Source: a virus
IMG/VR virus record: IMGVR_UViG_3300025096_000147
Location: 1-22,590 of that record
Direction: 5' to 3' (one strand)
Length of the DNA stretch: 22,590 nucleotides
The notes under the pieces are model-generated. The model was not told the origin of the DNA and searched no databases. It worked only from the letters and a program-made list of their open reading frames with translations. Positions 4,600 through 10,900 of the stretch are shown piece after piece (position 1 is the stretch's first letter; every line of letters starts with the position of its first letter). A program made the translations under genes and the position numbers.

Positions 4600-4959
4600 A
4601 TGAAAACAATTGCACTAGCTCTAGCAGCAACTTCATTTGCTTCTGCTCCTGCAATGGCTGGCGTTTATCTTAACGCTGAGTCAAATGCATCTTACTCTGG
4701 TACAGATTATACTTCTACCACAACCGATCTACACATAGGCTACGAAGGTGATATTGGTAAGCTTGGATACTATGTCCAAGGTGGACCTTCTTTCGCCGCA
4801 GCTGATGGAGTAGATGGTACATCAAATCTTTCTGGTAAGCTCGGAGGTTCCGTAGCAGCATCAGAGAAATTTGATATCTATGGAGAAGTATCATTCGCAC
4901 AAGTAGATGATGCTGATAATACTTATGGTACCAAGATAGGTGCCAAGTACAAGTTCTAA
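4600..4959 (+). CDS. secreted small outer-membrane beta-barrel (porin-like) protein
   Basis: This 119-residue protein has a clear Sec signal peptide: MK, hydrophobic IALALAATSFASA, then an AxA cleavage site after Ala20 (AMA|GVY). The mature 99 residues show alternating polar/hydrophobic strands rich in Gly, Tyr, Ser and Asp (for example TTTDLHIGYEGDI, KLGYYVQGG, KFDIYGEVSFAQV). They end TKIGAKYKF, and the terminal Phe with preceding alternation is the known C-terminal signal of outer-membrane barrels for BAM-type insertion. I count about six candidate strands, fewer than OmpX-like eight-stranded barrels. I recall similar short sequences in marine phages, without known function. It likely acts on the host envelope and not in the virion. 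It follows psbA and is closed off by a strong terminator. Confidence 0.8.
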   Translation: MKTIALALAATSFASAPAMAGVYLNAESNASYSGTDYTSTTTDLHIGYEGDIGKLGYYVQGGPSFAAADGVDGTSNLSGKLGGSVAASEKFDIYGEVSFAQVDDADNTYGTKIGAKYKF

Positions 4960-5128: not shown

Positions 5129-5659
5129 ATGGCTTTTTATGCTAACGAATCTGCAGGCACTGTACACTACAGCAATGCTGACTGGCAAACTGCAGGTATT
5201 ATAACGAATGACTACATCATCGACTCAGCTGATACAGGTGGAAACCTACCAACTGATGGAACTAATGGTGAAACATATCGTGCACCACTAAGCTTCCCGC
5301 TTGGTAAGTATGAGCGTGCTCGTATACGTGGTCTTGTTGATATCACCTATCTTGATGGTGACTTCAAGTATAAGCTTACTGTCCCTGCATCTTCTACATC
5401 TGCAAGGATTATTACTAAGAGCTCAGAGACTCCTATTTCTGGTGACACATCTGAAGTTACTGCTCTTTCAACAAATACCGCTGGTGTTGTTGAAGTTGCT
5501 GTGACCGCAGCTGATGGAGCTGGTTATGTCTTCTTTGAAGGTACAATTGAAGCTGGCGGTACTGCAGGTACTGTAGCTTTTGAAATCGGACAGCGTGCTA
5601 ACCACTCTAACGACACTGTACTTAAGGAAGGATCATACCTAGAATATCTTAAGTTCTAA
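5129..5659 (+). CDS. beta-rich putative virion (head-associated) protein
   Basis: This 176-residue protein has no signal or TM segment. The composition is Gly/Thr/Ser/Ala-rich with many short predicted strands (DFKYKLTVPASS, VVEVAVTAADGAGYVFFEGT). The C-terminal part, AGGTAGTVAFEIGQ...LKEGSYLEYLKF, resembles an end motif I recall from uncharacterised structural proteins of marine phages. The gene is directly upstream of the capsid gene and separated from it only by a tRNA and leader. It shares the capsid gene's richer use of C-ending codons, which suggests high expression. A head decoration, head fibre or other virion role is a reasonable inference, but an auxiliary non-virion protein is not excluded. 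Confidence 0.7.
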   Translation: MAFYANESAGTVHYSNADWQTAGIITNDYIIDSADTGGNLPTDGTNGETYRAPLSFPLGKYERARIRGLVDITYLDGDFKYKLTVPASSTSARIITKSSETPISGDTSEVTALSTNTAGVVEVAVTAADGAGYVFFEGTIEAGGTAGTVAFEIGQRANHSNDTVLKEGSYLEYLKF

Positions 5660-5686: not shown

Positions 5687-5757
5687 GCGAGCTTAGTTTA
5701 GCGGTAAAACTGTAGCCTTCCAAGCTATTGTCATCGGTTCGATTCCGATAGCTCGCT
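5687..5757 (+). tRNA. trnG: tRNA-Gly (anticodon UCC)
   Basis: This is a complete 71-nt cloverleaf. The acceptor stem is GCGAGCT/AGCTCGC (7 bp) and the D-stem is GTTT/AAAC. The anticodon stem GTAGC/GCTAT has a 7-nt loop CTTCCAA with anticodon TCC. The T-stem is ATCGG/CCGAT with loop TTCGATT. The discriminator base is U, as expected for bacterial tRNA-Gly. CCA is not encoded (TTTGG follows) and would be added by the host. It reads GGA, and by wobble GGG. It lies in the same orientation between two structural genes, so it must be cut out of the late transcript by RNase P and 3' processing. Confidence 0.95.
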
Positions 5758-5876: not shown

Positions 5877-6887
5877 ATGGCTAACGCCACACAGTCAGTA
5901 CTCGGTGCCCTGAATAAGGCGGTCTCAAACACCGCTGGGTCTCAGGATTATGATACCAAGTACGCGACTTATCTGAAGCTGTTCTCAGGTGAGCTATTCA
6001 AAGCTTATGAGTCAGCAACAATAGCACGTGAAACCGTGCAAAGACGTACCCTAAAGAACGGTAAATCATTACAGTTCATCTTCACGGGACGCATGCAAGC
6101 TGCCTATCATGAGCCAGGGACACCTATCCTTGGATCAGGCGATCCTCCAGTAGCTGAGAAGACCATCCAATGTGATGACCTTCTTATCTCTAGTGCTTTC
6201 GTATATGATTTAGATGAAACACTTGCACATTACTCATTAAGATCAGAGATCTCCGCTAAGATCGGTCACGCTTTGGCTGAAGCATATGATAAGAAAGTCT
6301 TCCGTACAATTGCACTAGCTGCAAGGGAAGCTCATCCTATCACTGCATCACCAGGACCAGAACCAGGTGGTACTCAGATCAGACTAGGATCTGGTAAAGA
6401 GTATGACGCTCAAGCTCTAGTAGATGCCTTCTTCGAAGCTGCTTCAGTTCTCGATGAAAAGAATCTACCTAAGACTGGACGTACTGCTGTACTATCTCCT
6501 CGCCAATACTATGCTTTAGTATCTCAGGTATCTTCCAACATCCTTAACAGGGACTATGGTAACAGCCAGGGTAACTTAACATCAGGTGAAGGACTAGTTG
6601 AAATTGCTGGTATCTCTATCAAGCGTTCTAACAACCTACCTTTCCTTGCTGGTACAGTTAACCCAGTATCTGGTGAGAACAACACCTACAATGGTGACTT
6701 CACAAACAGCTGTGGACTTATCTATCAGCGTGATGTAGCTGGAATTGTAGAGGCAGTTGGACCACAAGTCCAAGTCACAGGCGGTGACGTGTCAGTTTTA
6801 TACCAAGGAGACGTATTAGTGGGAAGGCTCGCAATGGGCGCCGGAACACTAAACCCTGCTGGGGCTATCGAACTTCTTAACACATAA
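5877..6887 (+). CDS. gp10: major capsid protein, T7 gp10-like
   Basis: This 336-residue protein compares with 345 aa for T7 gp10A. It is the shell protein with the HK97-type fold expected for this family. Matching segments are visible: YLKLFSGELFKAYESATIA near residue 30 (T7 LFLKVFGGEVLTAFARTSV), SLQFIFTGRMQAAYHEPG (T7 SAQFPVLGRTQAAYLAPG), IQCDDLLISSAFVYDLDETLAHYSLRSE (T7 ITIDGLLTADVLIYDIEDAMNHYDVRSE), and LVGRLAMGAGTLNPAGAIEL at the C-terminus (T7 YAMGHGGLRPEAAGAV). One coding line (6301-6360) is 52% GC by hand count, well above the tail and ejection genes. This fits codon selection for very high expression. A gp10B-type frameshift product was looked for and not supported. Confidence 0.97.
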   Translation: MANATQSVLGALNKAVSNTAGSQDYDTKYATYLKLFSGELFKAYESATIARETVQRRTLKNGKSLQFIFTGRMQAAYHEPGTPILGSGDPPVAEKTIQCDDLLISSAFVYDLDETLAHYSLRSEISAKIGHALAEAYDKKVFRTIALAAREAHPITASPGPEPGGTQIRLGSGKEYDAQALVDAFFEAASVLDEKNLPKTGRTAVLSPRQYYALVSQVSSNILNRDYGNSQGNLTSGEGLVEIAGISIKRSNNLPFLAGTVNPVSGENNTYNGDFTNSCGLIYQRDVAGIVEAVGPQVQVTGGDVSVLYQGDVLVGRLAMGAGTLNPAGAIELLNT

Positions 6888-6898
6888 GGAGGTATATT

Positions 6899-7051
6899 AT
6901 GTCAGTTGCACCTGGCAAATGTAAGAAGCAGACTCATACCACAGGTATGGGTACTGCTCGTTCAGTAACAACAAACATGCCAAGCCCAATAGAGTATGGA
7001 CGTACAGTACAATCCGATGGATTGTCTGCACTTAAATATGGTGCTTGCTAA
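6899..7051 (+). CDS. 50-aa capsid-adjacent protein of unknown function
   Basis: The near-perfect Shine-Dalgarno AAGGAGGT at 6887-6894 lies 4 nt before ATG 6899. This is the strongest ribosome site in the window. The frame encodes 50 residues, starting MSVAPGKCKKQTHTTGMG and ending SALKYGAC, with Cys at positions 8 and 50. No TM segment is visible. It starts 12 nt after the capsid stop on the same message and upstream of the next terminator, so it should be made in large amounts with the capsid protein. A small head-decoration or capsid-accessory role is inferred from that placement only. I do not recognise the family. Confidence 0.75.
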   Translation: MSVAPGKCKKQTHTTGMGTARSVTTNMPSPIEYGRTVQSDGLSALKYGAC

Positions 7052-7067
7052 TTAATCATTTATAACT

Positions 7068-7241
7068 ATGGCCGTTTCTGTAGCTAAAGGGAACGCTGGT
7101 GTATGCACAACAGATGCAACACGTGAAAGCGTATCTCGTACAAATGGTGACGGTACAGATATTCGTTCGTCTAATGCTATATACTCAGTAACTAAAAATC
7201 TGAGGTTAGCATATCCAGGCGTTGAATGCAACGTTACCTAA
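7068..7241 (+). CDS. 57-aa capsid-adjacent protein of unknown function
   Basis: ATG 7068 opens a 57-residue frame starting MAVSVAKGNAGVCTTDATRE and ending AYPGVECNVT, with Cys at positions 13 and 54. It lies 16 nt after the previous small gene and 12 nt before the intrinsic terminator, so it is the last gene of the capsid transcript. No good Shine-Dalgarno is visible. Codon use is like that of the capsid gene (AAC, GTT, GGT). Like its 50-aa neighbour it is small, polar and has two cysteines near its ends, and the pair may work together. Function is unknown. A minor capsid or head-tail accessory protein is a guess from position. Confidence 0.7.
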   Translation: MAVSVAKGNAGVCTTDATRESVSRTNGDGTDIRSSNAIYSVTKNLRLAYPGVECNVT

Positions 7242-7250
7242 TCAATTAAT

Positions 7251-7279
7251 AAGGGGAGTCTCTGTACTCCCTTTTTTTT
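7251..7279 (+). terminator. intrinsic terminator after the capsid gene group (T-phi position)
   Basis: GGGAGT (7254-7259) and ACTCCC (7266-7271) form a GC-rich stem with a 6-nt loop, followed by eight T (7272-7279). Flanking A bases (7251-7252) can extend pairing into the T tract. It lies between the capsid gene group and the tail tube gene, the same place as the T7 late terminator T-phi. It would make the capsid unit more abundant than the tail and ejection genes, which are reached by read-through. Confidence 0.92.
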
Positions 7280-7299
7280 ATTCACAAATATTTATACCT

Positions 7300-7935
7300 A
7301 TGACTACCACAACCGTTGATATCGATACCGAACTATCCGCAGTCAATGCGATCCTTGGTAGCATCGGACAGTCTCCTATTAATGGGATAGACTTCGCTAA
7401 CCCTGAGATATCATTTATTTATAACATACTGAAAGAAGTAAATCAAGATGTCCAGAGCGAAGGTTGGACTTTCAATTTAGAATACCATATAAAAGAGACT
7501 GTAAGTCCTACAGATAATAAAATAATTATTGAATCTGATGTGATCCGTATAGATATGGAAGATGCATGGGATCGAACTCGTGACTTTGTAAGGAGAAGAG
7601 ATAGTACTGATGGGTTATGGAAAATATATGATAGAGTAAATCATACATTTGAGTATCCAGATAATGATTATTTCTATGTTAATAAAGTTAGACTGTTAAC
7701 CTTTGAAGATATACCAACAGTGTTCCAAAGATATATAATATATAAAGCATCAGGTAGAGCAGCTGTACAGTTAGTATCTAATGCTCAACTACAGCAGATG
7801 TTACAGACATATGAGTTACAAGCTAGAGCTGCTTGTATGGAATACGAATGCAATCAAGGTGACCATAACTTTATGGGTTGGCCTGATGAATCTGCATACC
7901 AATCTTACAAACCTTATACAGCATTGAGACGCTAA
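7300..7935 (+). CDS. gp11: tail tubular protein A, T7 gp11-like
   Basis: This 211-residue protein compares with 196 aa for T7 gp11, the gatekeeper ring joining portal and nozzle. TELSAVNAILGSIGQSPI at residues 10-27 parallels T7 AELSAVNDILASIGEPPV. DVQSEGWTFNLE parallels QIQSRGWTFNIE. The C-terminal ARAACMEYECNQGDHNFMG parallels ARRLCMEYEMDYGGYNML. The frame is open back to ATG 7222, but that would place the intrinsic terminator inside the gene and add 26 residues absent from the family, so ATG 7300 is chosen. No clear Shine-Dalgarno precedes it. The stop shares one base with the next start (TAATG). Confidence 0.95.
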   Translation: MTTTTVDIDTELSAVNAILGSIGQSPINGIDFANPEISFIYNILKEVNQDVQSEGWTFNLEYHIKETVSPTDNKIIIESDVIRIDMEDAWDRTRDFVRRRDSTDGLWKIYDRVNHTFEYPDNDYFYVNKVRLLTFEDIPTVFQRYIIYKASGRAAVQLVSNAQLQQMLQTYELQARAACMEYECNQGDHNFMGWPDESAYQSYKPYTALRR

Positions 7936-10900
7936 TGGCAAGTGTAACACAAAAAATCGGTAACTATGTTCTTGGTATTTCTACTCAACCAGACGAGAAG
8001 AAATTACCAGGACAAGTAACTGATTTAGTCAATGGCGTACCAGACGTAGTACGTCAATTAATCAAACGACCAGGTAGTAATTTAGTAACTTCAATCACAC
8101 CATCTACTGCAGCTCATACTAAATGGTTTAATATCTATACAACTAGCTCGGAGCAATACATTGGACAAGCAGGTGCAGATGGTGCTGTTAAGATATGGAG
8201 ATGTAACGACGGTGTTGAAATACCCGTGGATTATGCAAATATTCCTGGAACAAATAAAGCTACTTACCTAGATAATACTGCTTTACTAGATGAGAAATCA
8301 TCTGACATACAGGTCTCAACAGTTAATGAAAGTACTTTCTTTATTAACAGACGTAAGACCGTAGCTATGAAGACTGGTAAATCTGATTTATCACCTGCTA
8401 AAATCTACGAAGCTTATATAGAACTTGATACTATAGCTTATGGTAAGCAATACTCTTTAGATATTTATGATCCAGATGATAATACAGAATATGTACATAC
8501 ACGTGCTACTGCTATAGTAGTAGATGAGACTACAAGTTACAGTGGTTCTAGTAATGGAGATTGTAAAGGTATGGGTAGAGAGACAGTAAATGTCAACTCT
8601 ATCAATACTGCTTCCCCTGCTATATATGCAACTTCACCTCCTAACGCAAGTTCAGGTGGTAAGACTAATCTTAGGTATGAGATGGACACTCGTTGTACTC
8701 CTCAACCTACTGATGACGACGATAATGATAATTACCATGATGCCTATGCTCCATATTCTAAACTACAATTCGGAGGAGAAGGCTGGAAAACAGATGATAC
8801 TCATCAATATACATCTGAGAAAGGCATCACAACTACTGTAACAATAACAGCTCATGGAGATATATACTCTAGAGCTAATGTTGCTATGGTTAGACCAGCC
8901 CCTACATCTTCTAATAATGAAGAGCATGTATCTTCTGGTGGTATATTAGGAGGTATGAAATCTGCATTAGATGCTATACCAGGTACAGGTATAACATGTA
9001 AAATCGTTGGCAATGGTTTACATTTATACAGAGCTACTCCTTTTGGTGTAACTACACCAGAAAAAACTTTAATGAATATAGCCACTAGTGAAGTTAATAA
9101 TATAGGAGATTTACCACGTAATTGCAGGCATGGTTATACTGTTCGCGTCGTAAATAGTGGCGAGGATATGGATGATTATTACCTTAAGTTTCAAGCTGAA
9201 GGTATTGCATCTGAGATAGCAAAGAGTGGTACATATACAAGAGCAGCAAGTGGATCTATAAGTGGTAACTATACAAGAGGTGTAGGCCATACTATTGCAA
9301 CTAGTGCTGTTAATACTAGCAACGAACAAATCACCATTTCAGGGCATGGTATGTCCACTGGTGATGCTATAAGATATGATGATGGTGGTGGAACAGCACT
9401 TGCTGGGCTAACAGATAATACGACTTATTATGTTATTTACGTTAGTGTAGATGTAATTAAACTCGCGACCTCTGTATCTAATGCAGCAGCTGGGACAACT
9501 ATTAATTTAACAGGAACTGGTAATAATTCTCAGACATTAACACATCTCCCAACTACCATTACTATTACAGATGCTGCTCATGGTCTGGCACATGGAGATC
9601 AAATTGTTGCAGCATTTTCAGGTGCCGCTACTGACGGTACATATACTATACAGAATGTAACAACAGATACCTTTGATGTTATTGATGCTACACCAGGTGC
9701 AATTACATCTACATCCATGACCTATACACATGGTCTTTGTACTGTTACGACTGCAGCTGCTCATAACCTAACTACTGGTGATGATATTATCATGGACTTC
9801 ACTAGTGGTGGAGCATCTGATGGGTACTATTATGTAACAGTAACTGGTGCTACAACCTTCACAGTTAACCAACCTGTAGCAACTGGTATTGATGCTACAC
9901 CTGATGATACATGCACATACCAGCCCTACTACGCCGGAGAGGGCGTGTGGGAAGAGGTAGCAGCACCTGGTATAGAAACTACCTTTGATGATGATACGAT
10001 GCCCTTACAGCTCGTTAGAGTCGAAGGTAGTACACAGTACACAGTCGCTACATCTTCTGTTAATGTTAGTAATGAACAAATTACTATTAGTAATCATGGT
10101 ATGGTTACAGGAGTTACAGTATTATATAACAATGGTGGAGGTACAACTTTAGCAGGACTAACAAATGATACTATTTATTATGTAATTAAAGCCTCGGCTA
10201 ATAATATAGCCTTAGCTTCATCAGCAGATAATGCTACAAATGGTATTGCTGTTAACCTTACAGGTACTGGTAATAATGCTCAAACATTTACATGGGGATA
10301 TTTCGATATTAATGGAGGTGCTAACGCACACTATATTAATGGTGCCTTTAGATTTAAGTATCCAGATTGGGGTCAACGTGATGTAGGTGATGATATCACT
10401 AACGCACCACCATCCTTTGTAGGGGATACTATTCAAAATATGACCTTCTTTAGGAATAGAATAGCTCTACTTAGTGAGGAGAATGTTATATTATCTAGAG
10501 TTAATGACTTCTTTAACTTCTGGGTTAAAACTGCTATGGCAATATCTAATGCAGACCCTATTGATTTACAGTCGAGTTCCACATACCCTACTAAATTATA
10601 CTCTGCAGTAGAAGCTAACTCTGGTTTAATTATATTAAGTGCTAGTGAACAGTTCTTACTTAGTTCAGGTGCTGAAGCACTCTTAACTCCTGAAACAGCT
10701 AAGGTTAGTTACTTATCTTCTTATGCATTTAACTCTGATACAAACCCTATATCATTAGGTACAACTATAGGTTTCTTGAATAGTACAGCTAGAGATGCTA
10801 GATTCTATGAATTAGCAGGTGCCTCTTCAAGAGAGCCTCCTGTGTTAATGGAGCAAAGTAAAATCATCGGTAGATTATTCCCACAAAATATAACAAATAT

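Follow-up and report, generated by a model that had tools for sequence, protein, structure and literature searches.

T7-like phage heads are textbook shells without cement proteins. The heads of the cyanophages P-SSP7 and P-SCSP1u consist of the major capsid protein (MCP) only, with no cement proteins (PMC10575957). In Syn5, knob densities on the capsid have been assigned to gp58 and gp55 (PMC9207676, PMC10575957), and in a later re-analysis based on AlphaFold gp58 is the preferred candidate, its C-terminal domain being placed in the two-fold surface density, an assignment stated as unproven (PMC9207676). In the Agrobacterium phage Milano, the 38-aa LP2 (gp128) resembles the N-terminal strand of LP1 (gp16), which adds an Ig-type domain hanging off the capsid; the arms of both extend across the capsid, where disulphide bonds tie them to the minor capsid protein (mCP), and reduction weakens the virion (PMC10491603).

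Here we analyzed a stretch of 22,590 nt (the window) that contains the late region of a T7-like cyanopodovirus. Its 5′ part encodes the portal, scaffold, psbA, a Phage_OMP protein, a 176-aa protein, tRNA-Gly and the MCP, which matches the capsid structures of P-SSP7 (2xd8) and Syn5 (4bml). The MCP is followed by two small genes (ORF1 and ORF2), a terminator-like hairpin, tail tube A and B, the internal virion proteins and the fibre. An earlier note on this DNA had placed two small genes between the MCP and a strong terminator, and both their coordinates and their order were confirmed:

5877..6887, + strand: major capsid protein (MCP, T7 gp10A-like), 336 aa; Pfam Gp10A-like 6.5e-83, PHROG 267 1.1e-77
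6885..6893, + strand: Shine-Dalgarno (SD) sequence of ORF1, TAAGGAGGT, matching at 9/9 nt; its own TAA is the MCP stop codon (stop at 6887)
6899..7051, + strand: ORF1, 50 aa, ATG start, short form of a modular family (F1), with Cys8 and Cys50
7068..7241, + strand: ORF2, 57 aa, ATG start, family F2, which equals PHROG 23669, with Cys13, Cys54 and the motif S.TKNLR.AYPGVEC
7251..7282, + strand: intrinsic terminator-like hairpin (7251-7274) and T-run, at the end of the MCP/ORF1/ORF2 transcript
7300..7935, + strand: tail tube A (gp11), the downstream border of the cassette; Pfam Tube 3.2e-30, PHROG 446 4.7e-53

Upstream of the MCP, a gene for a Phage_OMP beta-barrel (4600-4959; Pfam PF24653, E 9.4e-43) adjoins psbA within the structural region. 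The gene for the 176-aa protein (5129-5659) and the tRNA-Gly (UCC; 5687-5757) lie in this order before the MCP; NATL1A-7 keeps the position of the tRNA and has a 184-aa gene at the same position as the 176-aa one. The 176-aa protein matched PHROG 24062 weakly and is possibly a further virion surface protein; ORF1 and ORF2 showed no relation to it above noise.

ORF1 and ORF2 are real coding genes under purifying selection. Only 3 of 2,000 shuffles of the 412-bp gap between the MCP and gp11 contained two ORFs of this size, and in comparisons among related sequences the pooled pN/pS was 0.24 for ORF1 (pN<pS in 656/656 pairs) and 0.20 for ORF2 (631/632 pairs). The SD sequence of ORF1, located 5 nt ahead of the ATG, forms a duplex of -13.5 kcal/mol, against -7.3 kcal/mol for the runner-up among 19 window genes, and is indeed the best of the window, as the earlier note had said. 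An SD sequence is retained in the F1 relatives (median -6.3 kcal/mol), and none that reaches -6 precedes the MCP or gp11 gene of any relative. ORF2 has no SD sequence in the window, and about 70% of its relatives lack one at -6 or better. High expression of both genes had been expected; because ORF2 lacks an SD sequence this is only partly supported, with the perfect SD sequence of ORF1 speaking for that gene. Folding of the hairpin at 7251-7274 gave -11.5 kcal/mol (z -2.8).

We compared the cassettes of every fetched locus that held both the MCP and gp11, with an MCP at least 72% identical to that of the window as the limit. An F2 gene lies between the MCP and gp11 in all 112 distinct cassettes within this limit, and an F1 gene in 101 of them, always between the MCP and F2, so that the order is fixed as MCP-[F1]-F2-terminator-gp11. 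A terminator follows the last cassette gene in 104 of the 112. Part of these cassettes came from loci fetched via ORF1 or ORF2 themselves; the 60 distinct cassettes fetched via the MCP alone all carry both F1 and F2. Conservation next to capsid genes, whose lack the earlier note had set as a refuting result, was thus observed for F2 throughout. ORF1 has no homologue in 11 of the 112 cassettes and is therefore not essential. Among isolates, F2 is encoded by NATL1A-7, S-CBP1, S-CBP3, S-CBP4 and S-SRP01, and F1 by NATL1A-7 and S-CBP4, with F1 absent from the whole genomes of S-CBP1, S-CBP3 and S-SRP01; the assembled genome of the lake phage DSL-LC07 encodes both. Whole-genome profile searches of 13 outgroup records, including P-SSP7, P-SSP2, Syn5, P60, S-TIP37, 9515-10a, P-GSP1 and S-RIP2, found neither the F1 arm nor F2, and no bacterial chromosome encoding ORF2 was found. 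In one locus (L067:3223-3894), a 223-aa ORF lies between the ORF2 homologue and gp11, behind the terminator position, and judged by eye it looks like a homing endonuclease of the GIY-YIG type.

Alignment of the F1 proteins revealed a constant N-terminal arm of ~35 residues (MSxxPG...GxG...T.NxPxPxEYGR), the start of which is shortened in freshwater forms. Short forms, such as ORF1, consist of the arm and a short tail after GR and reach a total of 48-66 aa, whereas long forms add 70-200 aa in the form of one of two mutually unrelated types of beta domain. In the first type, which includes the DSL-LC07 protein, the arm is joined to a GGDGYRVGD domain of ~70 aa (109-121 aa in total); in the second, it is joined to one or two HGL..GD..Y domains (124-141 and 233-241 aa). 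One cassette (L043:2094-2975) carries a short copy (48 aa) and a long copy (241 aa) in tandem. In another (L033:2608-2981), a long F1 gene is apparently split over two frames, which could stem from decay or from faulty assembly; the near-identical copy in L034 is intact. In an AlphaFold2 model of a 239-aa F1 protein, built on 9 sequences, residues 1-37 had a pLDDT below 50 and were followed by beta domains.

The best family matches of the add-on domains were virion proteins (baseplate wedge, tail fibre, virion structural and head decoration proteins). Foldseek and VIA searches with the long-form model returned only a common small beta-barrel arrangement (a ubiquitin E1 half-domain and tailspikes, with Z up to 7), which says little, and its named BFVD matches were mostly tail and baseplate proteins. 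Domains of this kind are common in phage virion proteins, and taken by themselves they indicate a virion location, not specifically the head. The GGDGYRVGD domain of the freshwater long forms matches the C-terminal half of Syn5 gp58 (E 0.0026 at genome level, pairwise z up to 9.4). This evidence from long forms is extended to the short ORF1 via the common arm, as ORF1 itself carries none of the beta domains, the gp58-like GGxGYRxGD domain included. Syn5 resembles the window in having a cyanopodovirus head and in this homologous domain, but gp58 and gp55 are encoded far from its capsid gene and neither the F1 arm nor F2 was found there. A search of solved structures (PDB) with the ORF1 profile returned no relevant chain and one chance match to an antibody; ORF1 and ORF2 were also unrelated, above noise, to Syn5 gp53, gp54 and gp55.

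The HGL..GD domain leads to a different comparison, as it matches repeats in gp12 of the window (z 21). This tail tube B protein of 1386 aa has inserted beta repeats (HGM..GD..Y..GGGT) at residues ~452-784 (window 9289-10286). The MCP of P-SSP2 (L007) contains a 95-aa insert at residues ~264-358 that matches the window's gp12 (z 15.5), although its direct similarity to the long F1 domain is modest (z 3.9-4.6). In P-SSP2 the module is built into a loop of the MCP and not carried on a separate arm protein. This loop is longer in P-SSP7-type MCPs, which have neither F1 nor F2, than in the window's clade; other P-SSP7-type MCPs have shorter inserts there, and the MCP of the window's clade has none. 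Judged by these matches, related phages seem to have two ways of equipping the head with similar modules, an arm protein or an insert in the MCP.

ORF2 matches PHROG 23669 along its whole length (residues 1-56 against profile positions 1-56 of 59, E 2.7e-18), a family with no annotated function. AlphaFold2 modelled the single chain with low confidence (pLDDT 59.8), and its profile had no homologue among solved structures. That ORF1 and ORF2 are homologous, as their common S.TKN motif might suggest, was considered and rejected (hhalign probability 0.9%). A role of ORF2 as a capsid clip is suggested by its position, its conservation and its cysteines. The earlier note had seen no resemblance of either protein to a familiar T7 protein and had taken both as candidates for undescribed proteins. 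They are not entirely new, as ORF2 belongs to PHROG 23669 and one S-CBP4 record labels an ORF1 homologue 'minor capsid protein 10B'; as far as our sources show, within the open-licence literature searched, they are undescribed as capsid linking or decoration proteins, and we found no published virion data for this MCP clade in that literature.

One cysteine near each end of both proteins had also been noticed, and these are C8 and C50 in ORF1 and C13 and C54 in ORF2. Cysteines make up 4.0% of ORF1 and 3.5% of ORF2, compared with at most 0.95% of the other structural proteins counted in the window. A single cysteine was seen in none of 59 distinct short F1 proteins, of which 34 lack cysteines and 25 contain two. 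Of 88 distinct F2 proteins, 84 contain exactly two; the sequences within each family are related, so this parity represents events in a few lineages only. Where a short F1 form has a pair, its cysteines are C8 and the C-terminal residue, or both lie near the C-terminus. We saw no link between the cysteine state of F1 and cysteines in the MCP, and pairing within or between F1 and F2 is therefore likelier than bonding to the MCP. The paired cysteines probably reflect disulphides in F1 and F2.

We consider it probable, though well short of certain, that ORF1 and ORF2 are minor capsid linking or decoration proteins, probably locked by disulphides. Both would be made from the mRNA of the capsid gene, ahead of its terminator, and would bind the outer face of the capsid lattice, linking or cementing it. 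ORF1 would be an extended arm (about residues 1-35) lying on the capsid and ending in a short tail, and in relatives the same arm would carry a beta domain displayed outside the capsid. ORF2 may be a companion clip, as it is present in every relative, including those without ORF1. After exit of the particle from the reducing environment of the host, the cysteine pairs would oxidise and either lock each clip or tie clips to one another. Capsid binding, the outside location, cementing, and the formation and timing of disulphides are what we infer here, and the capsid cement, minor head and disulphide-linked accessory proteins proposed in the earlier note are inferences of the same kind. Adjacency to and co-inheritance with the capsid gene, a trait that is common but not universal in cement and linking proteins, was found for both F1 and F2. 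A more specific version is possible, and we hold it only tentatively: a clade-specific, two-part, disulphide-locked system in which ORF2 is the obligate clip and ORF1 an arm with exchangeable display domains, and in which the cysteines stay reduced until the particle is released into oxygenated water and then oxidise, hardening it.

By analogy, we propose that F1 may work in the way of LP1 and LP2 of Milano, with F2 as a second clip. The short F1 form is equivalent to the arm at the start of the long forms, which end in a beta domain; this arm is unstructured and carries cysteines, and the tandem short and long copies described above stand side by side like LP2 and LP1. This is a likeness of design, as no homology was detected when the F1 profile was compared with PDB chains. 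Moreover, Milano, a myophage of T=9, has its jellyroll mCP as a separate protein, and the cysteines of its linking proteins have been shown to bond to that mCP, whereas for F1 and F2 disulphide bonding is a prediction. Counting against capsid clips, the P-SSP7 and P-SCSP1u capsids suggest that T7-like cyanophage heads do not need cement proteins. However, both phages fall outside the capsid clade that carries ORF1 and ORF2: P-SSP7 lies outside the window's MCP clade and its genome was searched, and the MCP of P-SCSP1u is much more distant (from a comparison of the MCP only).

Virion proteins of the tail or of the head-tail junction, aiding gp11 and gp12 or the portal instead of clipping the whole lattice, are a rather unlikely alternative. 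It would fit the position of both genes directly before gp11 and the nature of some long-F1 domains, which are of the gp12 repeat type or also occur in baseplate and tail-fibre families. Nevertheless, the terminator separates ORF1 and ORF2 from gp11, and the SD sequence of ORF1 is far stronger than that of any tail gene, suggesting a high copy number. F1 protein distances also track those of the MCP (partial 0.43) over those of gp11 (0.21), while F2 distances do so barely better for the MCP (partial 0.25) than for gp11 (0.20), and the resemblance of the freshwater F1 domain to gp58 points to a candidate for a capsid knob.

Lattice clips are also to be weighed against an assembly role, as a prohead chaperone or scaffold helper, or a place in the capsid interior, so that the mature shell would lack or conceal the proteins. 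The adhesin- or display-type beta domains of the long forms make little sense for a transient chaperone, and the paired cysteines suggest an oxidised, extracellular state; we therefore find this improbable, even though the proteins are small, come from the late capsid transcript and show no confidently predicted stable fold in ORF2 or the ORF1 arm. Tiny phage proteins without an assigned function often act on the host, and ORF1 and ORF2 could be non-structural late proteins of this type, concerned with takeover or lysis timing and merely riding on the capsid transcript. We regard this as quite improbable, as their position beside the MCP is invariant in all relatives, they occur only with this MCP clade among the genomes searched, long F1 forms carry virion-type domains, and no match to defence-related families was found. 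Finally, we rejected as barely conceivable that -1 frameshifting lengthens the capsid protein by ORF1, as happens in T7 gp10B, which is also a minor component of the capsid and comes from the end of gene 10. The S-CBP4 label and the -1 frame of ORF1 relative to the MCP in the window and 80 of 101 relatives would fit this reading. Against it, ORF1 is an independent gene that starts at an ATG of its own behind a perfect SD sequence, the end of the MCP is open in the -1 frame for 2-20 nt or not at all, the other 21 relatives use another frame and no canonical slippery heptamer lies near the MCP stop.

If ORF1 and ORF2 are indeed capsid clips, they would be candidates to explain density still unassigned, and as few as 35-50 residues could suffice to anchor a protein on the capsid. 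The cassette would then represent a natural experiment in the reinforcement of phage shells and the addition of surface domains, carried out across a large marine and freshwater clade.
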